Of a DNA stretch of 64,000 bases, positions 7,409 through 49,252 are shown piece after piece. A program made the position numbers and the translations under genes. The DNA is taken from assembly GCF_003990915.1 (NCBI RefSeq), contig NZ_BHXQ01000001.1:737402-801401 (forward strand). Direction: 5' to 3'. This DNA is from Chryseotalea sanaruensis. Its GTDB lineage: Bacteria > Bacteroidota > Bacteroidia > Cytophagales > Cyclobacteriaceae. Each line of letters opens with the position of its first letter. Within the stretch, counting starts at the first letter, position 1. A model generated the notes under the pieces. The model saw only the letters and a program-made list of their open reading frames with translations, did no database searches and was not told where the DNA came from.

Positions 7409-7449
7409 GATCGCTGACTGGCATCATCGACATTCGGCTGTTGATGAAA

Positions 7450-7497: not shown

Positions 7498-7962
7498 ATG
7501 AACACGTTATTAAAACCAGCAACCGGCCTGTCCAGAGTATTTTCTGATTGGCTGAGACCCGATTCATTGTTCGATAGAGAGTTTTTTGATATCGAATCAG
7601 ATTTATTCCCTGCAAAGCCAGGCGTAAATGTTCCATCAGTGAACATAAAAGAAACGCCTAAGGAATTCACCTTTGAACTGGCGGCTCCAGGTATGGAACG
7701 AAAAGATTTCAACATTGAGTTGAAAAATCACTCTTTAACAGTCAGTGCTGAAAAAGAAGAGGAAAATGAAGAAGGAACTGAAAAAAGTGATTATTGGAGA
7801 AAAGAATACTCCTACAATTCTTTCACCAGGTCCTTCATCTTGCCAGAAAATATAAAGGAGGGGAACATCGATGCGAAATACGAAAATGGCATTTTAATGA
7901 TCCATGTGCCCAAAGCAAAAGAAACACCGGTTGAAAGTCCAAAAAAGATTATGGTCAAGTAA
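7498..7962 (+). CDS. Hsp20/alpha-crystallin small heat shock protein
   Basis: A 154-residue small chaperone. The alpha-crystallin domain (about residues 38-140) contains VNIKETPKEFTFELAAPGM and the conserved FTRSFILPENI and YENGILMIHVPK motifs, the latter close to the family's A-x-x-x-n-G-v-L box. Small Hsps hold unfolding proteins in oligomers without ATP. A perfect -7 element and a CIRCE-like inverted repeat lie upstream. The BON protein starts 24 bp downstream, so the two probably form one heat/stress operon. Confidence 0.93.
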   Translation: MNTLLKPATGLSRVFSDWLRPDSLFDREFFDIESDLFPAKPGVNVPSVNIKETPKEFTFELAAPGMERKDFNIELKNHSLTVSAEKEEENEEGTEKSDYWRKEYSYNSFTRSFILPENIKEGNIDAKYENGILMIHVPKAKETPVESPKKIMVK

Positions 7963-13146: not shown

Positions 13147-13158
13147 TGATAACAATCA
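13147..13158. promoter_or_regulatory. Fnr-like box, TGAT-AACA-ATCA
   Basis: A perfect TGAT-N4-ATCA palindrome lies between the divergent DUF2892 and methyltransferase genes. A TA-type -7 candidate lies 24 nt away toward DUF2892, and another (TATTCTGT, 13181) 22 nt away toward the methyltransferase. Confidence 0.6.
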
Positions 13159-13268: not shown

Positions 13269-13904
13269 ATGAAAAGCAAATTACCTTTTGAGTCAACTGT
13301 AGCTGAATATGAGCAGTGGTTCACAGACCATCCATTTCTTTTTAAATCGGAGGTTGAGGCTTTACGAGACATGCTACCAATTGGTGAAAGCCTTTATGGA
13401 ATTGAACTGGGGCTTGGTACAGGTAAAATATCTGTAGCCTTGGGTATTAAAGAAGGTGTAGAGTCTTCTCCAGCCATGCGTGCCATGGCAGTAAAGCGAG
13501 GAATTGAAGTAATCGATGGATCTTCAGAACAGTTGCCCTATAAGGACATGCGCTTTGATTTCGTGCTCACAACCTTGTGTACGAGCTACTTTAACGACTT
13601 ACATGTAGCATTTAAAGAAGCTTATCGTGTGCTTAAAAATAAGGGTGTATTTATAATGGGGTTTATAGATAGAAATAGTATAATCGGCCGTGAGTACACA
13701 AAACGTAATGATGATATTAGCTTTTATAGGTTTGCAATGGTTTACTCGGTGGATAAAGTAATTTTTGAATTAAACTGCGCTGGCTTTAAACATTTTAAAT
13801 TCTGCCAAACACTATTTCATCCAATAGAAGAGATCACTCAGTTAGAGCCTGCTAAACCAGGATATGGTGAGGGTTCTTTTGTGGTTATTCAGGCGAGAAA
13901 ATGA
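13269..13904 (+). CDS. Class I SAM-dependent methyltransferase
   Basis: The 211-residue protein has a Rossmann-type SAM fold. Motif I is IELGLGTGKIS (near residue 45), with SEQLPYKDMRFDFVLTTLC as motifs II-III and EAYRVLKNKGVFIMGFID after it, placing it in the Methyltransf_11 group. The substrate cannot be deduced. Two Fnr-like boxes lie 60-125 bp upstream, so it is a candidate member of the stress regulon. It is convergent with the broken dodecin gene. Confidence 0.82.
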   Translation: MKSKLPFESTVAEYEQWFTDHPFLFKSEVEALRDMLPIGESLYGIELGLGTGKISVALGIKEGVESSPAMRAMAVKRGIEVIDGSSEQLPYKDMRFDFVLTTLCTSYFNDLHVAFKEAYRVLKNKGVFIMGFIDRNSIIGREYTKRNDDISFYRFAMVYSVDKVIFELNCAGFKHFKFCQTLFHPIEEITQLEPAKPGYGEGSFVVIQARK

Positions 13905-14301: not shown

Positions 14302-15360
14302 TCAATGCAGTAATTTCTCCAACTTGGCTCTGTTTACTATTCTAATACCATCATCAGATATCTGAATGAGTCCGTCATCTCTAAATTCTGCAAGCATTCT
14401 GTTCAAAGACTCAGTAGCTGTTCCGACAATATTGGATAAATCTCTTCTCGCTATAGTGATCCTATTATCTTTATCAGTGTTATCCAGCTTTGTTTCCATT
14501 TTAATCAAAACATTTGCAACACGCTGCCGAACAGATTGATAAGCAATGTCTAATAACCTGCTCTCCATTTCTTCCAGGTTATTGGATAGCATTTTAATAA
14601 ACTTATGAGCCACTTCTTTACTTGTATATATCAAGGTAATAAAATCACTTTTGGGAATGATGGTAATGCGAGCATCTTCCATCACTTCAGCATTTTCATA
14701 ATAAGCTTTTTCTTCTAATAGCGGTACGAATCCCAAAAAATCACCAGCTTTATAAAAACCTGTTATCAGTTCTTTACCATCATAATTCACCCTATACGTC
14801 TTGACTTGCCCTGATTCAATATAGTATAAATCGTTAGGGGTCTGCCCTTCCATGAAAATAATGTCTTTTCTTTTAAACGAGCGAGTTGGTCTATTTTCTG
14901 AAAGCTTCTGAAAATCTTTCAGCTCTCTGGTTTTACTAAAAAAGGCACTAACATCTGAAGAGCTGTTACCCAGCGCAATTTTCATAAGCTCATTTTTTTT
15001 AAGCCTAGTTTCTACAACTCTTAGCAAATCCACACCTTCAAATGGTTTTACGATGTAGTCATCTGCCCCCAGATTCATCCCAACGCGAAAATCACTCATG
15101 TCAGCTTTTGCTGTTAAAAAGATAAATGGAATACTGGCCGTCTCTGGATCTTTATTCAAAATATGCAACACACCATAACCATCCAGCTCTGGCATCATTA
15201 TATCACACAGTATCAAATCAGGGCGGTGTTGTTGAATGAGTTCAACTCCAATTTTTCCATTTGGAGCTTGCATCACTTTATATTTTGCCAGTAGCAAAAT
15301 CCCTGTAATGTTTTCAACTACTTCTTCATTATCTTCGATTATAAGAATTGTGTAACTCAT
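14302..15360 (-). CDS. Response regulator with REC, cNMP-binding and Crp/Fnr HTH domains
   Basis: In 352 residues there is a receiver domain (1-125; phospho-acceptor D53 in LILCDIMMP, with T and K at FLTAKA and VKPF), a cyclic-nucleotide-type sensor barrel (about 150-270, with FLGFVPLLEEKAYYENAEV) and a Crp-type winged helix (about 285-345). The recognition helix reads TESLNRML; E317 and R321 correspond to Fnr E209 and R213, while Asn stands for Fnr S212. Only one cysteine (C52) is present, so it is not an Fe-S oxygen sensor like Fnr. It lies 10 bp downstream of the kinase gene, and is the best candidate to bind the TGAT-N4-ATCA boxes. Confidence 0.92.
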   Translation of the reverse strand: MSYTILIIEDNEEVVENITGILLLAKYKVMQAPNGKIGVELIQQHRPDLILCDIMMPELDGYGVLHILNKDPETASIPFIFLTAKADMSDFRVGMNLGADDYIVKPFEGVDLLRVVETRLKKNELMKIALGNSSSDVSAFFSKTRELKDFQKLSENRPTRSFKRKDIIFMEGQTPNDLYYIESGQVKTYRVNYDGKELITGFYKAGDFLGFVPLLEEKAYYENAEVMEDARITIIPKSDFITLIYTSKEVAHKFIKMLSNNLEEMESRLLDIAYQSVRQRVANVLIKMETKLDNTDKDNRITIARRDLSNIVGTATESLNRMLAEFRDDGLIQISDDGIRIVNRAKLEKLLH

Positions 15361-15370
15361 AACTTTGTTG

Positions 15371-17266
15371 TTAAGTTTTTTGATTCAATTCAGTGGTCCT
15401 TTTCAGGGGTAGTATAACGGTGAATATTGTCCCCTTGTCAAGCCTACTTTCGAAAAATATTTTACCCGTTAATAATTTGACGTATCGCCTTACAATATTG
15501 AGACCTAGTCCGGTTCCTTGTATTTGAATTGTATTTTTTGCTCTAAAAAAGCGCTTGAAAATAAGCTTTTGCTCATCAGGCGGTATTCCTATTCCTTGGT
15601 CTGATACTTTGAGGGTGATATTTTTTGATGCTACACTTATGGTTAGACCTATGTTACTGGATATAGGAGAATATTTAATTGCGTTTGAAAGCAGATTCAG
15701 GAGTATGTTTCTTAATAAGTGTTTATCCATAGCTATTTCTGTATCCTCTCCTTCAAACTCAAATACAATTTTTTGACCTTCCTTTTTGGTCAGCGATACT
15801 TCCTGAATTAAATCCTCACAGAAGACTTTTAAGTTCATTGATTTTAACATAAGATGAACCTTACCTTCCTCTAGCTGACCAAGAGAGAGGAAATCATTTA
15901 ATAACTCGGTAAGGCCATTGACGGCCCGCTTAATTCGTTCAAGATGTTTTTTCCTTTCATTCTCCACCTGTTGGCCAGTGTAATTTTCTACTAAAAAGGC
16001 AGATGAAAGAATTGTGGTAAGTGGAGTTCTGAATTCATGAGACGCCATTGTTACAAACCTGGATTTTAAAGTATTTAACTCTTTCTCCTTTTCCAGCGTC
16101 TTCATTAATTCGTACTCAAGATTTTTATGAACGGATATATTTTTTACCACGACTAAAATTTCCTGGATCGGATGTCCCGGGCTTTCAATTGGCACTGCGG
16201 TTACATTATAAAAGTCACCTTTCAGCTCAATATCAAATGAAACCTTTTTCCCATCGAATACTTTTACGAGGGCTTTTTCTGCATAAACAGACATTGATTG
16301 GTAAATATTATCAAAAATGATATCGTTAATTATAGACTTTGAGTCTAATCCCAATGCGGACAGGCCTTTTCCACCTACTAAAACATACTTTAGACTTCTA
16401 TCCATTACTCCTATAAAGCCATCGGGATAATTATCTGCAATTGAATGGTAAATAGCTTGGTTGCTAATTAATTTTTGGTTACTACGCGCAAGCTCCTCAG
16501 TTCGTTGTTTTACTTCCGATTCAAGCTTTTGATTATATTCATGCATCATTTTTAAGTTGGCCTTTGCGAGCTCATCATTTTTAACTCGATCAGTCACATC
16601 AAGAATAAATACAATCCAAACTATAGCTCCATTCTCATGGAAATAGCTAAGATTTATGTCAATATAAAATTCGCTCTCGTCCTTTCGTTTACATTTCAAA
16701 CTTTCACCTACTCTGGGCGATAACGGATTACTGATATTTTTAAAATATTCTTTTAGTATTATGGCGAAATTCGGAATTAATTCATCGATGACTTTAGTTA
16801 ATATATCAATGGATTTATAACCAAATATCTTTTCTACAGCTGGATTTGAACTGTAAATTTTTCCATCTTGACGTATCATCAGAATACCTTCATTGGCATA
16901 TTCCACTATTGATTTAAGTTGTTCCTTTTCTTTTTGCTCGATGTGATAAAGATTTCTAAGGTGGATAGTGAAGAAAACAGCTAGCCATATGATAAGTATT
17001 GACATTAATCGGTTTCCTAGTATGGTAATATCATTAATTGAATGAATAACAGGCAAGAAGAAAATACTTAGTAGAAAAAATGACGACACTACCCCAGTCA
17101 TTACAATGAATTTAGATAGACGAACAAACCAAAGTATATATGGGGTGATCAGTAGGTAAACAACTGTTCCTATAAAAATTTCGGATTTTATTTCAAAAAG
17201 TAAGGTCAGCAGCATTAACATAATGCCGAAAAAGAAATGTAGCAAGGGAATAACATTGACTTTCAT
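15371..17266 (-). CDS. Membrane PAS histidine kinase
   Basis: The 631-residue kinase starts with four or five transmembrane helices (to about residue 105), followed by a PAS domain (112-230), a short coiled coil, a second PAS (270-380), HisKA with H410 in ASHEFRTPL and a HATPase domain with N, G1 and G2 boxes (GIGIPPDEQ, GTGLGLNIV). The membrane part has almost no periplasmic loops, so it may sense within the membrane (redox or quinone state), by inference. It precedes the REC-Crp regulator by 10 bp and almost certainly phosphorylates it. A perfect Fnr-like box lies 74 bp upstream. Confidence 0.92.
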   Translation of the reverse strand: MKVNVIPLLHFFFGIMLMLLTLLFEIKSEIFIGTVVYLLITPYILWFVRLSKFIVMTGVVSSFFLLSIFFLPVIHSINDITILGNRLMSILIIWLAVFFTIHLRNLYHIEQKEKEQLKSIVEYANEGILMIRQDGKIYSSNPAVEKIFGYKSIDILTKVIDELIPNFAIILKEYFKNISNPLSPRVGESLKCKRKDESEFYIDINLSYFHENGAIVWIVFILDVTDRVKNDELAKANLKMMHEYNQKLESEVKQRTEELARSNQKLISNQAIYHSIADNYPDGFIGVMDRSLKYVLVGGKGLSALGLDSKSIINDIIFDNIYQSMSVYAEKALVKVFDGKKVSFDIELKGDFYNVTAVPIESPGHPIQEILVVVKNISVHKNLEYELMKTLEKEKELNTLKSRFVTMASHEFRTPLTTILSSAFLVENYTGQQVENERKKHLERIKRAVNGLTELLNDFLSLGQLEEGKVHLMLKSMNLKVFCEDLIQEVSLTKKEGQKIVFEFEGEDTEIAMDKHLLRNILLNLLSNAIKYSPISSNIGLTISVASKNITLKVSDQGIGIPPDEQKLIFKRFFRAKNTIQIQGTGLGLNIVRRYVKLLTGKIFFESRLDKGTIFTVILPLKRTTELNQKT

Positions 17267-17308
17267 AATTACCCATAGTAAAAATGCAGTTAGCCATCCT
17301 AGACAATA

Positions 17309-17351
17309 CGAAAATAGAATACTCCATATTATAATAAATTGATTACCATCA
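17309..17351 (-). promoter_or_regulatory. Kinase promoter: Fnr-like box plus -7 element
   Basis: The box TGAT-TACC-ATCA (17340-17351) is a full match. On the minus strand TATTTTCG (17316-17309) lies exactly 23 nt from it and matches TAnnTTTG except at one position. The box is centred 79 bp before the kinase start, suggesting that the two-component pair activates its own transcription. Confidence 0.65.
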
Positions 17352-17584: not shown

Positions 17585-17619
17585 TGATTATTATCAGGTA
17601 TTACACATGATTTTTATCT
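17585..17619. promoter_or_regulatory. Pair of Fnr-like boxes upstream of Usp
   Basis: TGAT-TATT-ATCA (17585-17596, full match) and TGAT-TTTT-ATCT (17608-17619, seven of eight) have centres 23 bp apart, about two helical turns. The second is part of the 15-mer ATGATTTTTATCTGA, whose exact complement recurs at 27287-27301. The nearest good -7 (TAATTTTT, 17691) is too far for the 23-nt rule, so the promoter layout here may differ. Confidence 0.55.
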
Positions 17620-17712: not shown

Positions 17713-18555
17713 ATGCAACGAATACTCGTCCCTACCGATTTTTCCAAAGAATCAAAAGAAGCATTTAAGGTTGCCATACAACTGGCGTCTAAAACAAAAG
17801 GTGAGATAGTTCTTTTAAACATTCTTACTATACCTAATTTATCTTCTACAGGCTTTGCAGGTGAAACACTTCCCTTCGATCCAGCTTATTTTACAGAAGT
17901 AATTGATGATATAAAGAAAGAACTATTAAAAATAAAGGAGATGAATAAGGAAAAATCGATAAAAGTTAACATAGAGGCTGTTTACGGAGACTTTGTGATA
18001 ACCATAAAAAATATGATTGAAAAGCATAAGATAGATTTGGTTGTCATGGGTACTTCTGGGGCTTCTGGTATTGCTGAGATTTTTATTGGGTCCAACACAG
18101 AAAAAGTAGTCCGATTTTCACCTGTTCCAGTGCTGGCTGTACGAGAAGCTATTGACATAAAATCTATTAGAAATATTCTGTTACCGTCTACACTACTTTT
18201 TAATCAAATACATTTTATTAGAAAATTGAAAGAATTGCAGCTATTCTTCAATGCAACATTACATATACTTTTAATTAATACACCGCTTCATTTTATGCGT
18301 GATGCTGACGCACACGAATCGTTAGAAGAATTTGCGATACATTACAAACTAACGAATTACAAACTGCACTTTAGAAACTATTTGCATGAAGAAGATGGGA
18401 TATTATCATTTGCTAATACAGAGGGAATGGATTTGGTTGCCATGGGAACGCATGCCAGGAAAGGTCTAGCACATTTTTTTAATATCAGTATAACAGAAAA
18501 TGTAGTAAATCATATTAAGATTCCTATCTGGACTTACAGCTTAAAAGAATCCTGA
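17713..18555 (+). CDS. Tandem universal stress protein
   Basis: Two UspA domains span residues 1-143 and 150-280. The first has the complete ATP-binding signature G-x2-G-x9-G-S (GTSGASGIAEIFIGSN); in the second the motif is degraded (GTHARKG, then NIS in place of GS). UspA proteins bind ATP or AMP and are induced by starvation, hypoxia or redox stress. Two Fnr-like boxes lie upstream, and a clean terminator follows at 18592. Confidence 0.93.
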   Translation: MQRILVPTDFSKESKEAFKVAIQLASKTKGEIVLLNILTIPNLSSTGFAGETLPFDPAYFTEVIDDIKKELLKIKEMNKEKSIKVNIEAVYGDFVITIKNMIEKHKIDLVVMGTSGASGIAEIFIGSNTEKVVRFSPVPVLAVREAIDIKSIRNILLPSTLLFNQIHFIRKLKELQLFFNATLHILLINTPLHFMRDADAHESLEEFAIHYKLTNYKLHFRNYLHEEDGILSFANTEGMDLVAMGTHARKGLAHFFNISITENVVNHIKIPIWTYSLKES

Positions 18556-21889: not shown

Positions 21890-22978
21890 CTACCTGCCCA
21901 ATTCCTTTAATCTCCTTAAGTGAGAAAACAGAGCATCCTTAAAAGTCGGTTTCAGATTATAAACTAATCCAAATTCCTTCGCTGTATTCTCCACGATGGG
22001 TGCAATATTTCGATAATGAACGTGACAAATGGAAGGAAATAAGTGATGCTCTATTTGAAAATTTAACCCTCCTGCATACCAATTAAGAAAAACATTATTC
22101 CTGGCAAAATCAGAAGTTGTTTTTAATTCGTGGACAGCCCATTCATTCTCAATAATACCTTCGCTATCAGGTAATGGCTGGATGGCTCCTTCTACTACAT
22201 GTGCCATCTGAAAAATAGTGCTCATAATACAAGCCCCTACCCAATGAATAACAAAGAAACCAATCAATACCTGCCACCAACTAAATTCAGTAAACAATAT
22301 TGGCAATCCGATAAACACAAATAAATAGATCAATTTTATGCTTATCATTTTAAAGTATTCAAATTTAGTATTAACGTGTTGTTGTTTTGTTAACCCCTCC
22401 CTATTATACCTTGCTAATTGTGAAAAGTCCTTAGTCAATTTTGAAATGGTCATTAAACCATAAAATAAAAACGCATAAATATATTGAAATCGATGAAATC
22501 GATTACGTGGAGCATGCTCTGATAACCGTAAAGGGCCCCGTACACCAATATCTTCATCATTTCCCTCAATATTTGTATACGTATGATGCAAAACATTGTG
22601 CTGTATTTTCCAATTAGTGACGGTGCTGCCTAAAAGATACATTGTGCTACCCGCTAAGTTATTAACCCATTCTTTTTTCGAATATGCTCCATGAACACCA
22701 TCATGCATAATGCACATACCAACACCTGCCATTCCAATGCCTATTAAAACCGTCATGAGCAACGCTAGCCATACACTGATTGGTATAGTCAGTATGATGA
22801 CAAACGGTAAAATATATATAGCTAATAAAACTATAGACTGAACTACAAGAAAAGTATTTCCTTTTTTGGAGAGGGCGTTCTCAGTAAAATAATCATTAAC
22901 ATTTCTTCTTACAGCAGATGCAAATTTTCGTTCCTGTTCATTGGTAGTAATAAACTTTACTGTTTTCATACTTTTCAA
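21890..22978 (-). CDS. Front-end fatty acid desaturase (acyl-CoA/acyl-lipid type)
   Basis: The 362-residue membrane desaturase has all three histidine boxes: HDGVHGAY, HNVLHHTY and QIEHHLFP. Glutamine in the third box (QxxHH) marks front-end desaturases of the linoleoyl/delta-5/6 type. There are four main hydrophobic segments. It would adjust membrane fluidity, and together with the cyclopropane synthase and hydroxylase it suggests membrane remodelling. A full Fnr-like box lies 62 bp upstream. Confidence 0.92.
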   Translation of the reverse strand: MKSMKTVKFITTNEQERKFASAVRRNVNDYFTENALSKKGNTFLVVQSIVLLAIYILPFVIILTIPISVWLALLMTVLIGIGMAGVGMCIMHDGVHGAYSKKEWVNNLAGSTMYLLGSTVTNWKIQHNVLHHTYTNIEGNDEDIGVRGPLRLSEHAPRNRFHRFQYIYAFLFYGLMTISKLTKDFSQLARYNREGLTKQQHVNTKFEYFKMISIKLIYLFVFIGLPILFTEFSWWQVLIGFFVIHWVGACIMSTIFQMAHVVEGAIQPLPDSEGIIENEWAVHELKTTSDFARNNVFLNWYAGGLNFQIEHHLFPSICHVHYRNIAPIVENTAKEFGLVYNLKPTFKDALFSHLRRLKELGR

Positions 22979-23007: not shown

Positions 23008-23051
23008 GAGAGCTAAATGACAGGGATCAAGAAATGAAATGATTCTTATCA
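23008..23051 (-). promoter_or_regulatory. Desaturase promoter: Fnr-like box and weak -7
   Basis: TGAT-TCTT-ATCA (23040-23051) is a full match, centred 67 bp before the desaturase ATG. On the minus strand TAGCTCTC (23015-23008) lies 24 nt from it and matches the TA and central T of TAnnTTTG. Confidence 0.55.
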
Positions 23052-23132: not shown

Positions 23133-24572
23133 CTATAAATCAATATCGTTTACCCCAGCAAACAGCAGATCAAAAAGAACCTCATCTCTTGAATAAATAT
23201 CCGGATATGAAAAAAAAGTATTGTTTTTAAACTCACAGGTGAAATACCTGATATGAATGGGGATAGGATATTTCAACCGTACCCATTTCTGCTGCTTATC
23301 TTTCAATATATTATCTACATACTTAGATTTCTTATCTGGCTTTCCGGTCATAAGGAAATGTGCTAGCTCTGTTGCCTTTTCCATGCGTATGCATCCATGA
23401 CTTAAGGCTCTTGTCTTACTGTTAAACAATTTTTTGGCATTTGTGTCATGAAGAAAGACTGCGTAGGGGTTTTCAAAAATAAATTTAATAATGCCAAGCG
23501 CATTATCAGGTCCCTCCTTTTGCCGGAAAGTCACTGGAAAATAATTTTCATGAAAATTAGCCCATGGCACACTATCTATATTCAAAATTCTTCCTCGGTG
23601 ATCAAGGATATCAAAATTATTGTTGGTTATAAAGTCCTTGTTATTTTTTACCAAGGGGAGGAATTCTTCAATGGCTATCTTTTTGGGAACATTCCAGTAA
23701 GGGTAAACACTAAAGTATTCGACTGTACTGCTTAATTCAGGTGTTTGATTTTCAACAGTGCCTACAATAACTTTTGATGTAAATAAAGCTGAGTCATTTT
23801 CAAGCACATAGAGGTAGTAAGATGGGATATTGATGAAAATAGAACGTTTCTTCATGTCTTGTTTTTCAGTGCGCCACCGCTCTAGATTTATGGCTATAAG
23901 CCTAAAGTTTCTTTGTAATGAAATTGAATCAGTAAACTGATAGCTTGTGGAATCTAACATGAGTTGCAAAGCTTTTTTCAGACCAACATATCCCCCATGC
24001 TCTGGCTCTTGCCCTTCTAAAGTCTTTTTTAAACCACTTCCTGATAAAACAGTATTGAGTAATTCTAAACTGGTTGAGTCTTCTTTCCATCCTTGTGAAC
24101 CATTAACACCATACTTCAGATTTTGTGCCAGATCAATGAAAGCATCGGTTAACAATATATCTTTCCTTATCAAATCGGGCTTATGGTTAATTGAATTACT
24201 GTCTGCCAGTTCATGTAAATGATAACAACCTTGCGGGAATCCATAGTATTGAACCCTATGAATAAGCTGGATTAAGGAATCTGCTAAAAACGTTAATTTA
24301 CCACCTTGTATCCATATCAGATTTCCGCCCTGACTTTGATAGTACTTAACAACTAATTTTTTTCTTTTTAATCCCTCAAATACGGCATTTGTTGTGTCCT
24401 GGCTGATCAACAAATCTTCTTTACCATCAATTTTAGGTAAATGCTTTTGAACACTGATTACCTGGTGATGCACGGTGTTTAAAGACTTTTCGCTCTTGCA
24501 ACTGCACAAGCATATAGCCACAATAAAAATATTGATGTAAATAAATGAGGTCATTATAGAATGAATGCTCAT
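23133..24572 (-). CDS. L,D-transpeptidase with scaffold domain (YcbB/LdtD type)
   Basis: The 479-residue protein has a lipoprotein-like signal (IVAICLCSC, Cys near 24), a scaffold domain containing LIQLIHRVQYYGFPQGCYHL, and a YkuD domain (about 265-440) with IVGTVENQTPELSS and the catalytic ALSHGCIRME. Such enzymes make 3-3 crosslinks in peptidoglycan under stress. ATG 24572 is the first start and ATG 24554 (MTSFIY) an alternative. A full Fnr-like box lies just 31 bp before the first ATG, which favours the downstream one. Confidence 0.87.
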   Translation of the reverse strand: MSIHSIMTSFIYINIFIVAICLCSCKSEKSLNTVHHQVISVQKHLPKIDGKEDLLISQDTTNAVFEGLKRKKLVVKYYQSQGGNLIWIQGGKLTFLADSLIQLIHRVQYYGFPQGCYHLHELADSNSINHKPDLIRKDILLTDAFIDLAQNLKYGVNGSQGWKEDSTSLELLNTVLSGSGLKKTLEGQEPEHGGYVGLKKALQLMLDSTSYQFTDSISLQRNFRLIAINLERWRTEKQDMKKRSIFINIPSYYLYVLENDSALFTSKVIVGTVENQTPELSSTVEYFSVYPYWNVPKKIAIEEFLPLVKNNKDFITNNNFDILDHRGRILNIDSVPWANFHENYFPVTFRQKEGPDNALGIIKFIFENPYAVFLHDTNAKKLFNSKTRALSHGCIRMEKATELAHFLMTGKPDKKSKYVDNILKDKQQKWVRLKYPIPIHIRYFTCEFKNNTFFSYPDIYSRDEVLFDLLFAGVNDIDL

Positions 24573-24602: not shown

Positions 24603-24614
24603 TGATGTCTATCA
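24603..24614. promoter_or_regulatory. Fnr-like box, TGAT-GTCT-ATCA
   Basis: A full match in the 61-bp gap between the PEP synthase end and the L,D-transpeptidase start. No TA element lies 23 nt from it, so either the promoter layout differs or the true start is further in. Confidence 0.45.
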
Positions 24615-24633: not shown

Positions 24634-27027
24634 TTACACTGTTTCCAGTTTTTCTTTAGCACTATGCTCAGCTGTGTAAATATTTTGTATGCCTGTAATT
24701 AGTGCATCAGGATTAAAGGAAATGGAGTCTATTCCACAGGAAACTAAAAAGCTGGCAAACTCAGGATAATCACTGGGCGCCTGGCCACATAAGCCAACAC
24801 TGGTACCGTGCTGGTGTGCCACTTCAATAAGGGTTCTGATAAGCATTTTAACAGATTCGTCATTCTCATTAAACAAGTGGCTTACTATCGCAGAATCTCT
24901 GTCAAGTCCAAGGGTTAGCTGTGTAAGGTCGTTGGAACCAATAGAAAAACCATCAAACAATTGGGCAAATTTATTGGCCAGCAGAACGTTACTTGGTATC
25001 TCTGCCATTACATAAATTTGCAAGCCGTTTTCCTTACGCTTCAATTGGTTAGCGGCCATTACCGCCAGCACTTTATTTGCTTCTTCAATCGTTCGACAAA
25101 AAGGAATCATTATCTTGACATTTGTCAGCAGCATATCATCCCTGACTTTTTTAATAGCAGCGCATTCCAATCCAAATCCCGCTGCATAATTTTCGTGGTA
25201 ATAACGGCTGGCGCCACGGAAGCCGAGCATGGGATTTTCTTCTTCGGGTTCGAAGAGCTTTCCTCCTAAAAGTTTTGCATATTCGTTTGTTTTAAAATCA
25301 CTCATACGAACAATTACTTCTCGCGGGTAGAAAGCAGCAGCCACCAGTCCTATAGATTCCGCGAGTTTATCGATAAAAAATTGCTGCTTATCTATATAAT
25401 GTCTCGTCAGTGCTTCGATTTGTTTTTTCTCTACATTATCCGGTAGTGTGTTATACTTAACAAGTGCCATTGGATGAATTTGGAGTGTGTTAGAGATAAT
25501 AAACTCCATACGCAAAAGCCCTACACCCTGATTTGGATACGTGGCATATAACAAAGCTTTCTCAGGATCTGCCAGGATAAGCATCGCTTTTGTTTTTGTA
25601 ACAAGCAGTTTGTCCAACGGTGTTTCTTTCTCTTGCCATTGAAGCTTGCCATTATACACTGCACCAACATCGCCAGTCGCACAAGAAACAGTTACTTCCT
25701 GCCCATCAGTAAGAATTTCAGTTGCTGACATTGTACCAACAACTGCAGGGATACCAAGCTCACGGGCAATGATCGATGCATGGCTGGTTCTTCCGCCTTT
25801 ATTTGTCACAATGCAAACTGCTTTCTTCAAGAGTGCATTCCAGTCAGGGTTTGTAATATCGGCTACTATAATGTCTCCGTGATTTACTTTTCCACCATCG
25901 GCAAGTGATTTAATAATGCGCACCTTTCCGCTGACAATAGCGCGTCCAACGGCTTTGCCAGTCAGCAAAGGTTGCTCTTTGCTCATTAGTGAAAATTCTT
26001 TCAGAGTTATAGCCTTATGCTGCGAGTGTACAGTTTCTGGCCGGGCTTGTACAATAAACAGTTTATCAGAAGCACCATCTTTCGCCCATTCAATATCCAT
26101 GGGCATTTTATAATGTCTTTCAATAGCCAGACACCATTTTCCTAATTTTTGAACTTCATCATCAGTTAAGATAAACTGATCACGCTCCAAGGGAGTCGTT
26201 TGAACCCATTTGGTATTTTTTGTCGCTGGTTCAGCATATATAAGCTTCTGCTCTTTACTTCCTAATTTTCGATAAACAATGGCTTGCTTATTATTTTCAA
26301 GGGCAGGCTTAAAAAGATAAAATTCATCAGTATTCACTGCTCCTTGCACCACACTTTCACCTAAGCCCCATGCACCTGTCAGGTAAATGAGATTTTCATT
26401 TCCATTTTCAGGTTCAATGGTAAAGATGACACCCGCACTGGCTTTGTCGGATCTTACCATTAATTGAACGCCTACTGAAAGCGCTACTTGCATATCTTTA
26501 AATCCATTATCTTGACGATATTTAATTGCGCGATCATTAAATAAGGAAGCATAACATTTTTGTACGGCTTCAATTACTTTTTCTGCACCGCTTACATTCA
26601 AGTAAGACTCATGCTGCCCTGCAAAGCTTGCCGTTGGCGAGTCTTCTGCAGTAGCGCTACTTCTAACCGCAACAGCATGAATAGGACCAGGCAGGGTCAG
26701 GCTTTCGTAGGCTTTAATAATAGCCTCGCGGATGTCTTCAGGAAATTTAGCATTCAGAACTAAACTCCGACACCTCTCTCCTATTAACGCTAAATTTTTT
26801 AAGGATTCACGCTCTAGTTTGTCAAGCTCATTTTGCAATAGATTTGTTAACAAATTCTCTTCCAAAAATTTTTTATAAGCATCCGTGGTAATTGCAAAAC
26901 CATTTGGAACATGAACTCCAAAAGAGCTCAAATTGTTAATCATAACTCCTAAAGAAGCATTCTTACCTCCAACTTTTGAAACATCATCGGCTGATATGCT
27001 TTTGAAATTTTTTATGTATTGATTCAT
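24634..27027 (-). CDS. ppsA: Phosphoenolpyruvate synthase
   Basis: The 797-residue enzyme converts pyruvate, ATP and water to PEP, AMP and phosphate. An N-terminal PPDK ATP-binding domain begins KVGGKNASLGVMI and has RSSATAEDSPTASFAGQHES. The swivelling phosphohistidine domain reads GGRTSHASI with H416. The C-terminal TIM barrel contains MIPFCRT, SIGSNDLTQ and GLCGQAPSDYP. With pyruvate dehydrogenase upstream it sets the fate of pyruvate. It has its own promoter with an Fnr-like box 64 bp upstream and is not obviously in an operon. Confidence 0.95.
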   Translation of the reverse strand: MNQYIKNFKSISADDVSKVGGKNASLGVMINNLSSFGVHVPNGFAITTDAYKKFLEENLLTNLLQNELDKLERESLKNLALIGERCRSLVLNAKFPEDIREAIIKAYESLTLPGPIHAVAVRSSATAEDSPTASFAGQHESYLNVSGAEKVIEAVQKCYASLFNDRAIKYRQDNGFKDMQVALSVGVQLMVRSDKASAGVIFTIEPENGNENLIYLTGAWGLGESVVQGAVNTDEFYLFKPALENNKQAIVYRKLGSKEQKLIYAEPATKNTKWVQTTPLERDQFILTDDEVQKLGKWCLAIERHYKMPMDIEWAKDGASDKLFIVQARPETVHSQHKAITLKEFSLMSKEQPLLTGKAVGRAIVSGKVRIIKSLADGGKVNHGDIIVADITNPDWNALLKKAVCIVTNKGGRTSHASIIARELGIPAVVGTMSATEILTDGQEVTVSCATGDVGAVYNGKLQWQEKETPLDKLLVTKTKAMLILADPEKALLYATYPNQGVGLLRMEFIISNTLQIHPMALVKYNTLPDNVEKKQIEALTRHYIDKQQFFIDKLAESIGLVAAAFYPREVIVRMSDFKTNEYAKLLGGKLFEPEEENPMLGFRGASRYYHENYAAGFGLECAAIKKVRDDMLLTNVKIMIPFCRTIEEANKVLAVMAANQLKRKENGLQIYVMAEIPSNVLLANKFAQLFDGFSIGSNDLTQLTLGLDRDSAIVSHLFNENDESVKMLIRTLIEVAHQHGTSVGLCGQAPSDYPEFASFLVSCGIDSISFNPDALITGIQNIYTAEHSAKEKLETV

Positions 27028-27059: not shown

Positions 27060-27102
27060 TAAATCTATATAGAAAGTATGCATATTTGAATGACTGATAT
27101 CA
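27060..27102 (-). promoter_or_regulatory. ppsA promoter: Fnr-like box plus -7 element
   Basis: The box TGAC-TGAT-ATCA (27091-27102, seven of eight) is followed on the minus strand by TAGATTTA (27067-27060), exactly 23 nt away. That -7 matches TAnnTTT. The box is centred 69 bp before the ppsA ATG. Confidence 0.6.
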
Positions 27103-30851: not shown

Positions 30852-31451
30852 CTAATTCTTTGTTTGTGATGTTAACTTACTTAGATTCAATTCCCAATAA
30901 ATACCCCTTACATTCGCTTTCCACTCCGGCAGCATAATGACCAAAATAATTTCTTCAATTAATTGAATAGCGGTCACTGTCACAGCCATCATAAATAGTA
31001 GATATGAGGGACCAAGACCAAAGAAAAATGAAATAAAAAACAAGCCCTGTGACACTGCGGCTACTTTTGCCATGTAGGTATGAAAACTAGTTACTTTCTT
31101 ATAGGCTATCAGAGCTGCAACGGTCTGTATGCCAAAAAGAAAAAAGAGCCCAACAAAAAGCAACCACTCGCTATGAACAAATTCTGGACTTATGATCCAT
31201 AATCCTAGAGTGGAAACCAAAATAGTTGCATCGTCCGCTACTGAGTCAAGCCTTGATCCGAATACACTGATCACATTAAATCTTCTCGCTAAGGGACCGT
31301 CAACTGCATCTGTAAAAAAACTAAGCGCTACTAACCATTTAAATGCCAACACCTCACCTGTATAAACCAGTAATAGTAAAAAGGGTGCAGAAACCAGACG
31401 ATACATGGTAATACTATTAATAAGATAGTACGGGATATTACTATTTGTCAT
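30852..31451 (-). CDS. CDP-alcohol phosphatidyltransferase family protein
   Basis: The 199-residue membrane enzyme has the family signature D-x2-D-G-x2-A-R-x8-G-x3-D-x3-D, seen as DAVDGPLARRF then GSRLDSVADD. About five transmembrane helices surround it. Such enzymes transfer a phosphatidyl group from CDP-diacylglycerol to an alcohol (glycerol phosphate, inositol, serine or another); the acceptor is not clear. It shares a divergent promoter region with the P-type ATPase, with two full Fnr-like boxes and a correctly placed -7 element. Confidence 0.88.
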   Translation of the reverse strand: MTNSNIPYYLINSITMYRLVSAPFLLLLVYTGEVLAFKWLVALSFFTDAVDGPLARRFNVISVFGSRLDSVADDATILVSTLGLWIISPEFVHSEWLLFVGLFFLFGIQTVAALIAYKKVTSFHTYMAKVAAVSQGLFFISFFFGLGPSYLLFMMAVTVTAIQLIEEIILVIMLPEWKANVRGIYWELNLSKLTSQTKN

Positions 31452-31521: not shown

Positions 31522-31617
31522 TGAAATTAACTTTTACCATAATAATCGCGCATGATAATGATCACTTATCAAAATGATACATATCACCCATTAAAAAACT
31601 GACTCACCTTATTTTCA
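31522..31617. promoter_or_regulatory. Divergent promoter with two full Fnr-like boxes, each with its own -7
   Basis: TGAT-AATG-ATCA (31553-31564) serves the minus-strand gene, with TAATTTCA (31529-31522) exactly 23 nt away. TGAT-ACAT-ATCA (31575-31586) serves the plus-strand gene, with TATTTTCA (31610-31617) also exactly 23 nt away. The box centres are 22 bp apart. This is the clearest instance of the regulatory architecture. Confidence 0.7.
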
Positions 31618-31638: not shown

Positions 31639-34341
31639 GTGGAAGATTTCTCTGTATTGCATATTGAAGAAGTGTTTCAAAAAGTGGCAGCTAAGGCATC
31701 AGGTCTCACCAGTGAAGAAGCTCGAGAAAGACTTATTGCCTTTGGCCCAAATGAATTGCCAAAAACAGAACAACATTCAATTTTCTATTATTTCTTCAAG
31801 CAATTTAAAAGTGTCCTGGTCATTGTTTTAGTGCTCGCTTCTATCTTGTCCTGGATTACAAATCACAAGACCGATGCCTACATTATTCTACTTGTCATTT
31901 TTGTTGATGCATTGATTGGTTTTATACAAGAATGGAAAGCTGAGCAGGCAGTCTCTGTTTTGCAAAAAATGCTTTTACCTCAGGCAAAAGTGATAAGAGA
32001 TAATCAACAGCTTTTGGTTAAAGCATCTGAACTTGTCCCTGGTGACGTTATTATTCTTGAGGAAGGCGACCATGTTTCTGCTGATGCACGACTTATTGAA
32101 TTAAAACACCTACGGGCTGTTGAATCTTCACTCACTGGTGAATCATTGCCAATCCTAAAAACAGTGGAAGCATTAAAGCCGGCTTCCTCAATTGGCGATC
32201 GAAAAAATATGGTGTGGAGAGGTACCTTTATTTCCGGTGGTTATGGTAAAGCGGTGGTCATTGGAACTGGGCTCAAAACAGCTATTGGCAGCATTGCCTC
32301 TTCTTTATCAGCCATTAAAGCTGAACCCTCACATTTTCAAAAAAAAATTAACAAACTGGCAACACAAATGGGACTTGCCTCAGTTGTGGCAGCAACCATT
32401 CTTTTTATCGTGGGTTATTTCACACTCGACATGCCTATAAACGATTTGTTCTTGCTTGCAGTGGCCGTAATGGTATCAATCATCCCGGAAGGTCTTCCCA
32501 GTATTATTGCCATAGTGCTTGCCATTGGTTCACGAAGAATGACCAAAAGAAATGCCATAGTAAGAGAATTTACTGCCACAGAAACCTTAGGTGCTGTAAC
32601 AACCATTATTACTGATAAAACAGGTACGCTTACAGAAAATGCTTTGACAGTCAGAAGAATATTTTTGTATGGTCAGCCTGAAGTTGAAGTGTCAGGTGAA
32701 GGCTGGATACCTATTGGCTCGTTTCAACAAAGTGAAGCTATTATAGAGGCCTCAAACAATTCGGTCTTAAAAAAATTGTTACTCATTGCTGCCCTTTGCA
32801 ATAACTCTTCAGTAAGGCACAAGCCTGCTGAAAATACTTATGAATTGGTTGGTGATCCCACCGAAGGCGCCTTGCATGTACTTTCCAAGAAAAGCGGAAT
32901 TGATATAAATGTCATCACCATAAAAAAAATTGATGACTTACCCTTTGATTCAATTTTAAAGTTGAGGGCATCTGTTGTTAAAATTGGATCATCCAGAGAA
33001 CTATTTGCCATTGGTGCACCTGAAAGAATATTGTCTAGATGCAAAAACGTACTGACGGAAAGTCGTATTGAACTGATAGACGATGTTATGCAAAATAAAA
33101 TAAAACAAAAAATTAATTCATGGTCGCTGGACGCCATGAGGGTGCTTGGGCTTGCCTACAAAGAAACTTCCACATCAGAAATTCAGGAAGATGAACTAAA
33201 GCAATTCACCTTTGTAGGAATAGTTGGTATGATTGACCCTCCAAGAGAAGAGGTAAAAGAAGCAGTAAAACGATGCAAAGAAGCCGGCATACGCGTAATC
33301 ATGGCTACTGGCGATCATATCAGCACAGCGGTTGCCATTGCCAGTGCTGTTGGTATCATCAATCATAAAGAAAAAGATGTCATGGCGCTGTCCGAAGAAC
33401 AGTTAATGGTATTAGATGAAAAAGAGTTTGAGGAAGCCATCAAAAGCGTAAATGTATTTGCGAGACTTAACCCGGAAACAAAGCTTCATATTGCGAGTCG
33501 CCTGCAGAAAATGGGGGAATTGATCGCCATGACCGGAGATGGTGTTAACGATGCGCTAGCATTAAAGAAGGCCGATGTTGGAATAGCCATGGGTATAATG
33601 GGTACAGATGTTGCCAGGGCTTCTGCTAAAGTAGTATTGGCAGACGACAACTTTGCCAGTATTGTATCTGCCATTGAAGAAGGGCGAATAGTTTTTATGA
33701 ACGCCAGGCAGGCTAGCTTTTACCTCATAACAACCAACTTTGCAGAGATTAGTACACTGATTGTTACCATCGCATTTGGATTGCCTATGCCACTCACCGC
33801 TATTCAAATTTTATGGCTTAATCTCGTTACCGATGGTATTGGTGACATGGCCTTGGCCGCGGAGCGGGGGCATGGGGAAGTGCTACAAGTAAAGCCATTA
33901 AAGAAAGATGAAAAAATAATTAACAGAAGCATATTACCTTTTTTGGGAATCAATGTGGGCATTATGACAGCTCTGGCAATTGCTGCTTATGTGTACTTTT
34001 TACCTTTTGGTGTTGAGCATGCGCGAAGTTCAGTATTCGTGGTCATGGCTTTCACGCAGCTATTTAACATGTATAACATGAGATCACTAAATAAGTCAAT
34101 TTTAGAAATTGGAATTTTCTCAAACATTTATGTTACCATTACTATGGTCTCATCTGCAATTATGACTATATCAATTATAAACATTCCGTTTTTTCAAGAA
34201 ATTTTTGGTTTTAAAACGATAAGCTACATTCACTTAATGATTCTTATACTGATGTCTTCTCTTGTATTATTTGGTGGTGAGGTGTATAAATATTTCAAAT
34301 CCCATGTCTTATATAGTCATCAGTTAACACGCCTACCGTAG
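31639..34341 (+). CDS. P-type cation-transporting ATPase (type II, Ca2+-ATPase-like)
   Basis: The 900-residue pump has the phosphorylated D326 in DKTGTLTENAL, the TGES-type actuator motif LTGESLP, the MIDPPR and TGDGVNDALALKKADVGIAMG hinge motifs and ten predicted transmembrane helices. PEGLP in helix 4 supports a type IIA/B (Ca2+ or Na+/K+-like) class rather than heavy metal. The start is GTG 31639; no ATG is in frame nearby. It would export Ca2+ or another cation under stress. It has a well-formed Fnr-like promoter 58 bp upstream. Confidence 0.93.
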   Translation: MEDFSVLHIEEVFQKVAAKASGLTSEEARERLIAFGPNELPKTEQHSIFYYFFKQFKSVLVIVLVLASILSWITNHKTDAYIILLVIFVDALIGFIQEWKAEQAVSVLQKMLLPQAKVIRDNQQLLVKASELVPGDVIILEEGDHVSADARLIELKHLRAVESSLTGESLPILKTVEALKPASSIGDRKNMVWRGTFISGGYGKAVVIGTGLKTAIGSIASSLSAIKAEPSHFQKKINKLATQMGLASVVAATILFIVGYFTLDMPINDLFLLAVAVMVSIIPEGLPSIIAIVLAIGSRRMTKRNAIVREFTATETLGAVTTIITDKTGTLTENALTVRRIFLYGQPEVEVSGEGWIPIGSFQQSEAIIEASNNSVLKKLLLIAALCNNSSVRHKPAENTYELVGDPTEGALHVLSKKSGIDINVITIKKIDDLPFDSILKLRASVVKIGSSRELFAIGAPERILSRCKNVLTESRIELIDDVMQNKIKQKINSWSLDAMRVLGLAYKETSTSEIQEDELKQFTFVGIVGMIDPPREEVKEAVKRCKEAGIRVIMATGDHISTAVAIASAVGIINHKEKDVMALSEEQLMVLDEKEFEEAIKSVNVFARLNPETKLHIASRLQKMGELIAMTGDGVNDALALKKADVGIAMGIMGTDVARASAKVVLADDNFASIVSAIEEGRIVFMNARQASFYLITTNFAEISTLIVTIAFGLPMPLTAIQILWLNLVTDGIGDMALAAERGHGEVLQVKPLKKDEKIINRSILPFLGINVGIMTALAIAAYVYFLPFGVEHARSSVFVVMAFTQLFNMYNMRSLNKSILEIGIFSNIYVTITMVSSAIMTISIINIPFFQEIFGFKTISYIHLMILILMSSLVLFGGEVYKYFKSHVLYSHQLTRLP

Positions 34342-34518: not shown

Positions 34519-35343
34519 ATGAAAAATATTCTTGTGCCAAGCGATTTTTCAAAACCTGCTGAAGAAGCATACAAATTTGCCATCAGTATTGCAGGCCAAA
34601 GTAAGGGCTGCGTTCATGTATTGCATGTGATTGAGACTACATTTCTAAGAGGCACACCAACCTTAGCAAACTCGTATACCTTCAGTCTAAATTTTATTGA
34701 AGAGTTTGAAAAAGAAATAGATAAAAAATTTCAGTTTATGTTGGATCGGCTGACACCTTTTACAATTAATGTTAGATTTAAACATGTTATTAGCTCACTA
34801 TCATATGAAATTGAAAACTATATAGCAGCCAACAAAATAGATTTAGTCATTATGGGCACACATAGTGCACAGAATATTACGGCCGGATCAAAAACAGAGA
34901 AAATTGTAAGGAGTTCTCCTGTGCCAGTGATAACATTACTGAAGGCTCCTGAGCGTATAACGAATATTGTCTTTCCAAGAGTGCCTGGCCAAGCAGATGA
35001 TCATTTTGTTGCCAGTATTAAAAGAATGCAGCTTTTTTTTGATGCCAAAATTCATCTCCTTCATGTCAACACGCCCACTGACTTTAAAAATGACCCGGAC
35101 GCTGAAAGCGAGCTGAATAAATTTGCCATCGCTAAGCAATTCCATAATTATACAATCAATCTTCGGTCTGACTTCAGTATTGAAAGCGGAATAAGCCAAT
35201 TTGCAAAAGATATAAAGGCAGACATGATTGTTATGGGTACACATGGACGAACTGGGATTTCTCACTTTTTCATTGGTAGCACAACGGAAGAAATCGTTAA
35301 TCATGAAGAAATACCGATCTGGACACAAGCCTTGAAAACATGA
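34519..35343 (+). CDS. Tandem universal stress protein
   Basis: Two UspA domains in 274 residues. Here the second domain keeps the full ATP motif (GTHGRTGISHFFIGST), whereas the first is degraded (GTHSAQNITAGSK). This is the reverse of the Usp at 17713. The stop overlaps the start of the ATP-cone/Mrr gene (ATGA), so the two are translationally coupled. A weak Fnr-like sequence (AGAC-AACG-ATCA, 34464-34475) lies 43 bp upstream. Confidence 0.92.
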   Translation: MKNILVPSDFSKPAEEAYKFAISIAGQSKGCVHVLHVIETTFLRGTPTLANSYTFSLNFIEEFEKEIDKKFQFMLDRLTPFTINVRFKHVISSLSYEIENYIAANKIDLVIMGTHSAQNITAGSKTEKIVRSSPVPVITLLKAPERITNIVFPRVPGQADDHFVASIKRMQLFFDAKIHLLHVNTPTDFKNDPDAESELNKFAIAKQFHNYTINLRSDFSIESGISQFAKDIKADMIVMGTHGRTGISHFFIGSTTEEIVNHEEIPIWTQALKT

Positions 35344-36215
35344 GTATGTACCCGAAGCCCTTGGATGTTGCTTCACTGGAAATAACTAAAGCCAACGGAG
35401 AAAAATCACTCTTTGATCCCTCGAAGCTTTTGAATTCAATGACCCGATCCGGGATTCAGCCCGATGAAGCTCAAAAGATCGTTGATACCATCAGTAAAGA
35501 TCTATACCCTGGCATTTCAACCAAGCAGATATACAAAAGTGCTTACCAATTATTAAAAAATAAATCGAGGCATTTTGCAGCAAGATACAACCTGAAAAAT
35601 TCAATAATGCAACTTGGGCCTTCAGGCTATCCCTTTGAAAAATTTATTGGAGCGCTCATGACTTATCAAGGTTATATTGTTCAGGTTGGCCAGATTATGA
35701 CAGGTAAATGTGTGCCGCATGAGATTGATGTGATCGCCTCTAAAGGAAAGCAGCAAATTCTGATGGAGTGCAAATATCATAATCGTCCCGGTAGTATTTG
35801 TGACGTAAAAATTCCGCTTTATATTAATTCACGATTTCTTGATGTTCAAGATCAGCTACAGGTTAATCCTGGATATACTAAAATAAAGCATGAGGGCTGG
35901 GTTGTAACCAACACACGTTTCACAAACGATGCCATAAAGTATGGCAATTGCGCAGGGCTACAGTTACTGGGATGGAATTATCCTGTAAAGAAAGGTCTTA
36001 AGGACTTGATTGACAATTTTGGCTTATATCCGATCACAACATTAACCTCCCTTAGTTTACACGAGAAAAAATATTTACTTGATAAGGGTATTGTTTTATG
36101 TGTTGGATTACCAAATGCCAGGCATATACTAAAGGAATTACATATTAGCTCTCAACGATTAAAAGTCATTCTTGATGAATGTGATAAACTGTGTCAGCGC
36201 TTAGGTGGCTCTTAA
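35340..36215 (+). CDS. ATP-cone domain fused to a Mrr-like nuclease fold
   Basis: In 291 residues, an N-terminal ATP-cone (about 10-95; ITKANGEKSLFDPSKLLNSM) is joined to a restriction-endonuclease-like Mrr domain (about 100-215). The PD-(D/E)xK core is visible as HEIDVIASKG followed by ILMECKYHNRPG. ATP-cones are nucleotide-sensing modules best known from ribonucleotide reductase and NrdR. A nucleotide-gated nuclease is a plausible inference. It overlaps the Usp gene by 4 bp and is convergent with the SDR gene. Confidence 0.82.
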   Translation: MSMYPKPLDVASLEITKANGEKSLFDPSKLLNSMTRSGIQPDEAQKIVDTISKDLYPGISTKQIYKSAYQLLKNKSRHFAARYNLKNSIMQLGPSGYPFEKFIGALMTYQGYIVQVGQIMTGKCVPHEIDVIASKGKQQILMECKYHNRPGSICDVKIPLYINSRFLDVQDQLQVNPGYTKIKHEGWVVTNTRFTNDAIKYGNCAGLQLLGWNYPVKKGLKDLIDNFGLYPITTLTSLSLHEKKYLLDKGIVLCVGLPNARHILKELHISSQRLKVILDECDKLCQRLGGS

Positions 36216-36230: not shown

Positions 36231-37004
36231 TTAATAGCCTGTCCAACCACCATCTGCAACAACTACTGAAGCGTTTAAAAAGCTCGCATCATCAGATGCC
36301 AAAAAAACAGCAAGGTTAGCTACCTCCCGGGGTTGACTGGTTCTTGGGTTTAAAGCCATTCCAGGTGAAATTCTATCGTTAAATATTTCAACGGCTGGCA
36401 GTTTAGAAAAATCCATACCTTTCACTATGTCAGTGTCCATGGCACCGGGTGCAATTGCATTACAGCGGATCCCAGATTTACTATACAGGTATCCTGTATT
36501 TTTGCTAAGCCCTATAAGGGCGTGTTTGCTTGTTGTATAAGCAGCACCTGCACGTCCTCCTTGAAGGCCACCTATAGAAGCAATGTTTAAAATTACACCA
36601 GCACCTTTTGCCAACATAATTTTTAGTACACCTCTCATTGCCCTCATGGGGCCATCCACATTGATCTTCATGACTCGCTCCCATTTTGCATCCGTAACAT
36701 AACCTACAGGGCTGAAGTCATCCATAACCCCCGCATTGTTTACCAGAATATCAACCGTGCCATATTGATCCACGGCAGCTTTGATCATAGCATCAACATC
36801 ACTTTCAAGGCTAATGTCACCTTTAAACACTGCAATGGGTAAACTTTTAGAAGATATTTCTTTTTTAAATTCCTTTAGTGTCTCTTCATTGTAATCGGTA
36901 GCCAGCACTTTAGCGCCATGCAGAGCAAATTGAATGGCTATTGCTTTACCCAAACCAGCTGCAGCACCCGTTACTATGGCCACTTTATTATCCAGTTGTT
37001 TCAT
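36231..37004 (-). CDS. Short-chain dehydrogenase/reductase
   Basis: The 257-residue classical SDR has the nucleotide-binding VTGAAAGLGKAIA, the NNAG motif, catalytic Ser in NIASIGG, YTTSK catalytic pair and the APGAMDTD segment. It acts on an alcohol or ketone with NAD(P); the substrate is not visible. An Fnr-like box with a -7 element at the standard distance lies upstream. Confidence 0.92.
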   Translation of the reverse strand: MKQLDNKVAIVTGAAAGLGKAIAIQFALHGAKVLATDYNEETLKEFKKEISSKSLPIAVFKGDISLESDVDAMIKAAVDQYGTVDILVNNAGVMDDFSPVGYVTDAKWERVMKINVDGPMRAMRGVLKIMLAKGAGVILNIASIGGLQGGRAGAAYTTSKHALIGLSKNTGYLYSKSGIRCNAIAPGAMDTDIVKGMDFSKLPAVEIFNDRISPGMALNPRTSQPREVANLAVFLASDDASFLNASVVVADGGWTGY

Positions 37005-37078: not shown

Positions 37079-37121
37079 TCAACATAGGAATAATCAACTT
37101 ATATCAGTATGATAATGGTCA
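37079..37121 (-). promoter_or_regulatory. SDR promoter: Fnr-like box plus -7 element
   Basis: TGAT-AATG-GTCA (37110-37121) matches seven of eight positions. On the minus strand TATGTTGA (37086-37079) begins exactly 23 nt away. The box lies between the divergent SDR and cyclopropane synthase genes; no TA element is at the same distance on the plus-strand side. Confidence 0.5.
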
Positions 37122-37357
37122 TCTGGAGCAAGTGGTATTTATCATCTTAAAAAACAGCTTATCCCTTTATGTTTTTTTAAGTACTCAAACTAGTCAGGCT
37201 TGTCCGATTAAACCTTAAAACCATGTGTTAGTCAATATAGACATGCATGATAATAATTGAATCTTCTTGTGATTATTCTCACTGGTCAAAAACTTTGGAT
37301 AAATTATTTTTAGCCAGGTTAAAGTATTTCACACACTGGTCAATAAATCTCATTTTT

Positions 37358-49134: not shown

Positions 49135-49240
49135 ATAATATTTTTTTAAAAGTTTTATCTCTGAGGATAAATGCATGAGACTTTACTTAAATATGAACTA
49201 TTAAAAATAAATATGCGATGAGGAATGTCGATAAGTCTGA

Positions 49241-49252
49241 TGATATCAGTCA
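49241..49252. promoter_or_regulatory. Possible Fnr-like box upstream of DUF2267
   Basis: TGAT-ATCA-GTCA matches seven of eight fixed positions within a run of overlapping TGAT/ATCA half-sites. No good -7 element lies 23 nt away, so the call is weak. Confidence 0.35.

Follow-up and report, generated by a model that had tools for sequence, protein, structure and literature searches.

A sensor histidine kinase and a regulator encoded side by side in the window, the 64,000-nt stretch of DNA analysed here (G000:C1:737402-801401 of a 4.71 Mb genome, contig NZ_BHXQ01000001.1), probably constitute a two-component system in which phosphorylation gates the response regulator, an activator of the Fnr type; judging from sequence, we put the probability of this reading at about 0.72. 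The regulator joins a receiver (REC) to a Crp/Fnr protein, and its nearest named counterparts, with ~73-77% identity, occur in Parachryseolinea, Chryseolinea and Fulvivirga (Bacteroidota). Both genes lie on the same strand, with a gap of 10 bp between the end of the kinase gene and the regulator gene:

Positions 14302-15360, minus strand: REC-Crp regulator, 352 aa, identified by domain search, alignment and model.
Positions 15371-17266, minus strand: sensor histidine kinase, 631 aa, identified by domain search and model.

According to the proposed mechanism, the kinase, with four membrane helices and two PAS domains, would respond to low oxygen or a membrane redox signal and phosphorylate D53 of the receiver. 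Phosphorylation, instead of Fe-S cluster assembly, would favour the dimer, the recognition helices of which (E317, N320, R321) would bind ATGAY-N4-RTCAT. From position -41.5, and often also from -63.5 (22 bp further), the regulator would recruit RNA polymerase to TAnnTTTG promoters and switch on an island comprising genes for universal stress protein (Usp), Hsp20, ppsA, cation ATPase, desaturase and cfa, together with its own operon. The window regulator would represent a derived branch (the Asn320 clade) of a REC-Crp family of Bacteroidota, which in its usual form would be partnered by a FixL-like haem-PAS kinase, often beside a cbb3 oxidase, and would tend to replace Fe-S Fnr.

Pfam divides the regulator into REC (residues 5-116), cNMP_binding (160-244) and HTH_Crp_2 (279-350) domains; the matches to PF00027 and PF13545, both above the cut-off, assign it to the Crp/Fnr superfamily. 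Its AlphaFold model (mean pLDDT 77.5) consists of the receiver, a flexible linker (129-153), a beta-roll, a long dimerisation helix (263-292) and a recognition helix beginning at residue 316, and a Foldseek search with this model returned structures of Thermus CAP and A. fischeri FNR as best matches. The acidic pair, phospho-acceptor Asp, Thr/Ser and Lys of response regulators are all present: among 93 relatives, D10 is found in 91, D53 in 92 (the remainder being gapped) and K105 in 93, and position 83, T83 in the window regulator, is T or S in 93/93. FixJ is a REC protein with a LuxR-type HTH output, whereas the output of the window regulator is built of cNMP and HTH_Crp_2 domains. Control by cAMP was considered for the regulator and rejected, as the Arg-Ser pair of the CRP pocket in Thermus CAP faces Tyr-Tyr in the alignment.

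The recognition helix of Fnr reads TTGAT through the motif E-x2-S-R. A phmmer alignment with A. fischeri FNR places VGTATESLNRML of the regulator helix over LGLTVETISRLL, with E317, N320 and R321 opposite E, S and R of FNR; E317 and R321 are invariant across the 93 relatives, whereas Ser is replaced by Asn in the window regulator, for which the predicted half-site is ATGAY. An earlier, sequence-only reading of this DNA, which had noticed the retained Glu317 and Arg321 and the Asn in place of Ser, is borne out by this alignment, and its claim of a single cysteine and no Fnr cluster holds as well: C52, adjoining the phospho-acceptor D53, is the sole cysteine, and the [4Fe-4S] cysteine ligands of Fe-S Fnr are absent. 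The cysteine beside D53 is also the only one conserved in the family (92/93 relatives) and therefore leaves no Fnr cluster; a putatively phosphorylatable receiver stands in its place in the whole REC-Crp family, not in the window protein alone.

Pfam recognised PAS_9 (126-226), HisKA (with H410) and HATPase_c in the kinase, and no named membrane sensor domain. The AlphaFold model of this protein, which is weak (mean pLDDT 67.5), has four N-terminal helices (7-27, 32-46, 52-70 and 80 onward) connected by loops of 4-9 residues, in agreement with the membrane part almost free of periplasmic loops that had been suggested. As to the two PAS domains suggested likewise, the first (about 115-226) is covered by PAS_9; the second (about 270-376) has no Pfam match in the window kinase itself, and is indicated by PAS-like order in the model and by a related kinase in which the aligned region is PAS_4 (E 4.8e-5). 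We infer the link between kinase and regulator, including phosphotransfer, from gene adjacency. In 7/19 cases of Asn-type regulators, the closest relatives, a related kinase is the direct neighbour; more than half of these regulators have no adjacent kinase, and the kinases around them are varied, some having another type of N terminus.

The genome encodes a second REC-Crp-kinase pair on contig C8 (regulator at 49030-50094), between two Usp genes and ccoNO, ccoP, ccoG and ccoH-like genes, all named by sequence resemblance. The PAS domain of the C8 kinase matches the haem domains of FixL and DosP (E ~1e-13 to 1e-14), with haem His and distal Arg aligned. Among 41 kinases adjoining regulators with Ile or Ser at residue 320, 36 have the haem His and 21 have both residues. 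The window kinase carries neither the haem proximal His nor the distal Arg of FixL at the aligned columns, and the haem His occurs in 0/5 Asn-type kinases. Because most relatives' kinases keep the FixL-like haem histidine and the window kinase lacks it, oxygen can only be presumed as the signal for its branch; the kinase sequence itself carries no indication of oxygen sensing. The missing histidine, the varied kinases near Asn-type regulators, the many such regulators without an adjacent kinase and the abundance of general stress genes in the island would also suit a system that works as proposed and reports nutrient, envelope or membrane stress, via the membrane helices, PAS domains or several kinases. 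We regard such a signal as possible, if somewhat doubtful, since the DNA box and some targets are common to Fnr-type oxygen regulators and the island has a gene content like that of the lxa locus and DosR regulon, which are induced under hypoxia (PMC6127331). We presume low oxygen or a membrane redox signal as the stimulus.

The DNA site was approached by scanning intergenic DNA for every 4- and 5-base palindrome with gaps of 0-10. TGAT-N4-ATCA ranked first in the regulator's own island at 717-772 kb of C1 (11 versus 0.25 expected, p 5e-15), in the loci of cbb3-type relatives (p 5e-22) and in other relatives' loci (9e-65), these p values being uncorrected for the thousands of patterns tried or for related promoters; in island-type loci of relatives, ATGA-N6-TCAT came first and TGAT-N4-ATCA second. 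Intergenic DNA of the window contains 7 copies of TGATN4ATCA versus 0.44 expected, and almost all intergenic copies on C1:640-900 kb fall within 720-770 kb. The density of TGAY-N4-RTCA per kb of intergenic DNA was 1.5-2.6 near regulators versus 0-0.26 in control stretches of the same four genomes. Whole-genome counts of ATGAYNNNNRTCAT did not separate genomes with from those without the regulator and are uninformative because coding matches dominate, and matches to TTGATNNNNATCAA at two mismatches were in slight excess only (112 versus 82 by chance). The core that proved informative, TGAY-N4-RTCA between genes, is in keeping with TGA-N6-TCA, the core read by Fnr, and the predicted site is ATGAY-N4-RTCAT with A favoured before TGA. 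In this respect the earlier reading needs correction: the half-site is ATGAY, not TTGAT.

Activators of class II classically sit at -41.5. When 345 boxes were each oriented toward the next gene and TAnnTTTG was scored at 5/6 or better, this element started 29 bp from the box centre in 96/345 cases, with a second peak at 51 bp (55 cases) and a mean per offset of 4.7. Pairs of boxes 22 bp apart occurred 23 times and any other spacing at most three times, which explains the second -7 peak. The Flavobacterium sigma-A -7 box TAnnTTTG spans -12 to -5 (PMC9723704), so that a -7 element at +29 puts the box centre at -41.5. The computed spacing, with start sites as predicted, is thus that of a class II activator, and the regulator would activate rather than repress. 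This geometry is found upstream of the kinase gene:

Positions 17340-17351: Fnr-type box TGATTACCATCA ahead of the kinase-regulator operon, 9/10 to TTGATNNNNATCAA, 79 bp from the kinase ATG; predicted autoregulation.
Positions 17309-17316, minus strand: -7 element TATTTTCG, 5/6 to TAnnTTTG, its start at 17316 is exactly 29 bp away from the centre of the box and so places the box at -41.5.

A full box with a proper -7 at this place had been claimed before, and the exact 29-bp register confirms it. The positive feedback postulated with it is partly supported: a box precedes the regulator's operon in 41/84 relatives, which is consistent with feedback and makes predicted self-control common in the REC-Crp family, while its positive sign would follow from the activating (class II) position. 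HisKA kinases are often bifunctional, and the direction of the response is not readable from sequence; receiver phosphorylation could inhibit, either with the unphosphorylated regulator binding DNA or with the kinase acting mainly as a phosphatase. We consider this improbable, although the class II position, which fits an activator, is silent on phospho-state. Activation by the phosphorylated regulator is our preferred reading.

The predicted targets in the island are genes for Usp, Hsp20, ppsA, cation ATPases, desaturase, cfa, L,D-transpeptidase, DUF2267 and a release-factor-like protein. A good -7 at +29 accompanies only some island boxes; besides the kinase promoter, the exact register is present at Hsp20 (6/6), ppsA (5/6) and a DUF2911 gene (5/6). 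The boxes below are given without strand:

Positions 7415-7426: box TGACTGGCATCA with a perfect -7 TATTTTTG at +29, ahead of the Hsp20/alpha-crystallin gene 7498-7962.
Positions 13147-13158: box TGATAACAATCA, ahead of the SAM methyltransferase gene 13269-13904.
Positions 17585-17596: box TGATTATTATCA, lying 122 bp before the Usp gene 17713-18555 and followed at 17608 by a degenerate box TGATTTTTATCT.
Positions 17713-18555, plus strand: tandem universal stress protein, predicted target, identified by domain search.
Positions 23018-23051: two boxes (23018, 23040), exactly 22 bp apart, ahead of the fatty acid desaturase gene 21890-22978.
Positions 24603-24614: box ahead of the L,D-transpeptidase gene 23133-24572.
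Positions 27091-27102: box TGATATCAGTCA with -7 TAGATTTA (5/6) at +29, ahead of ppsA 24634-27027.
Positions 31553-31586: two boxes (31553, 31575), exactly 22 bp apart, between the CDP-alcohol phosphotransferase gene 30852-31451 (minus strand) and the cation ATPase gene 31639-34341 (plus strand).
Positions 37110-37121: box ATGATAATGGTCAT, between the SDR gene 36231-37004 (minus strand) and the cfa-like gene 37247-38542 (plus strand).
Positions 49241-49252: box TGATATCAGTCA, between the DUF2267 gene 48670-49176 (minus strand) and 49436-49972 (plus strand).

The genes for Usp, Hsp20, ppsA, cation ATPases, desaturase and cfa suggest a dormancy-like block of survival genes. The box-rich region and the regulator share this one island, a linkage that alone is no proof of binding. 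The C8 cbb3-linked REC-Crp and a 243-aa Crp/Fnr protein encoded on C7 both keep the recognition-helix Glu and Arg (TESVIR, VETVIR). The C7 gene lies beside a cytochrome-c-like gene and has a perfect ATGATTGCAATCAT box (~299172-299222) 39 bp ahead of its start, which may reflect autoregulation or a relay under one REC-Crp protein; furthermore, 13/19 Fe-S Fnr genes elsewhere carry such a box themselves. The island boxes might be bound mainly by the C8 or C7 protein, the window regulator being redundant or acting elsewhere. This is unlikely in view of the clustering of boxes around the window regulator and their rarity at 640-717 and 805-900 kb of the same contig, of their clustering with the Asn-type regulator in relatives sharing it, and of a difference between Asn-type and Ile-type loci in the base before TGA, seen within the same genomes too. 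We assign the island boxes to the window regulator, although both other proteins could share them.

Residue 320 is Asn in the clade of the window protein (support 100/99) and Ile or Ser elsewhere. The base before TGA is A in 0.63 of half-sites at Asn-type loci versus 0.47 at Ile-type loci (12/5000 in a locus-label permutation), and C in 19% versus 32% (23/5000). In genomes with both paralogues, C precedes TGA in 11/22 at cbb3 loci versus 20/108 at islands (p 0.004), and the corresponding test on A gave p 0.058. These values provide modest evidence that Asn- and Ile-type paralogues read different outer bases, and the pair offers a test case for how Crp/Fnr proteins split DNA specificity.

The pair is no isolated case but part of a single branch of a widespread family, which numbers 567 loci or more. 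A literature search covering few subscription journals found no earlier study of a Bacteroidota REC-Crp regulator, and this large family is apparently undescribed. No Fe-S Fnr was found in the source genome: none of the 20 cNMP-domain proteins found, read individually, has the Fnr cysteine pattern. Across 118 genomes of the family, 43 have REC-Crp alone, 45 Fe-S Fnr alone, 14 both and 16 neither, Fe-S Fnr being called by similarity to cysteine-bearing relatives, 19 of which were read. The two regulators tend to exclude each other (Fisher p 1.4e-7; 8e-6 with one genome per genus), a statistic that shared ancestry can inflate. A box lies within ~130 bp of ppsA in 3/4 Asn-type and 1/2 Ile-type genomes, and within 100 bp in 4/6 Fe-S genomes; together with the boxes at Fe-S Fnr genes, this indicates that genomes with different sensors retain the same class of box and one or more common targets. 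At ccoN, a box is located at -92 to -104 in 12/13 REC-Crp genomes; among Fe-S-Fnr-only genomes it has this position in 2/15 and lies within 500 bp in 7. The lack of Fe-S Fnr here, the exclusion tendency, the common box and target and the class II spacing lend comparative support to the earlier view of a two-component substitute for Fnr governing a dormancy-like island. In three genomes (G026 C35, G077 C132, G013 C2), an Fe-S Fnr gene was observed ~6-11 kb from ccoN, a neighbourhood held by REC-Crp elsewhere.

To our knowledge, little is known about low-oxygen gene regulation in most Bacteroidota. If right, our reading gives hundreds of genomes a concrete regulator with its DNA code, promoter geometry and targets, and provides a natural example of a single regulon under two unrelated sensors. 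With Fnr, including the Fe-S Fnr of Bacteroidota, the window regulator has in common the recognition-helix E and R, the TGA-N6-TCA core, the class II position and the target ppsA; it differs in having a receiver instead of the N-terminal cysteine cluster and Asn320 instead of Ser. In rhizobia, FixL-FixJ/FxkR-FixK places a Crp/Fnr protein without cysteine cluster under phosphorylation control, with an anaerobox and cbb3 oxidase downstream (PMC7888657). Most REC-Crp relatives resemble it in the order of haem-PAS kinase, cluster-free Crp/Fnr, anaerobox and cbb3 oxidase. In contrast, receiver and Crp/Fnr are one polypeptide in REC-Crp, so that no separate transcription step is needed, and the half-site is ATGAY rather than TTGAT; the window kinase, unlike FixL, is membrane-bound without haem ligand. 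The lxa locus of Burkholderia cenocepacia and the DosR regulon each group tens of genes, linked or under common control, among which those for Usp and alpha-crystallin are frequent and which are induced at low oxygen (PMC6127331). The window island, known here from sequence alone, is similarly rich in both; the phyla differ, however, and DosR is also another type of regulator. NmpRSTU of Myxococcus xanthus exerts two-component control over an oxygen-use regulon with Usp and cbb3 oxidase (PMC11841059), but through an NtrC-like regulator and a multi-component relay, not a Crp/Fnr protein. There is an even chance, in our estimation, that one Fnr-type regulon was passed between two sensor designs across Bacteroidota (Fe-S Fnr, and REC-Crp with haem-PAS kinase), and that a duplication then gave rise to the Asn320 branch, which acquired a different outer box base, exchanged its haem kinase for one embedded in the membrane and came to control a separate island for long-term survival.

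The island is flanked by an 893-bp direct repeat of 98% identity, the copies being 72 kb apart (C1:717244-718136 and window 52106-52996, C1:789507-790397), which suggests an origin by insertion or duplication. The start of a ribonucleotide reductase gene lies inside the repeat; the left copy is long (588 aa) and the right one truncated (218 aa, 52422-53078). A gene for a phage-integrase-family recombinase (G000:C1:711349-712545) is situated just left of the bracketed island. The Asn-type regulator and the island's ppsA are absent from both same-genus genomes sampled (G033, G104), and no known RNA family was detected in the 64,000-nt window. The right end of the island carries two neighbouring genes, one MazF/PemK-like and one AbrB-like (51090-51730, minus strand), which by eye from sequence look like a toxin-antitoxin pair. 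Directly behind a Usp gene, the product of 35340-36215 contains an ATP-cone and weakly matches restriction-endonuclease-like Mrr. In at least two other genomes (L070, L086), the Asn-type regulator again has a SAM methyltransferase gene, in the window 13269-13904, as its neighbour, and relatives of the regulator adjoin a GroEL-like gene at L063 and L066/L067 (G093, G015).
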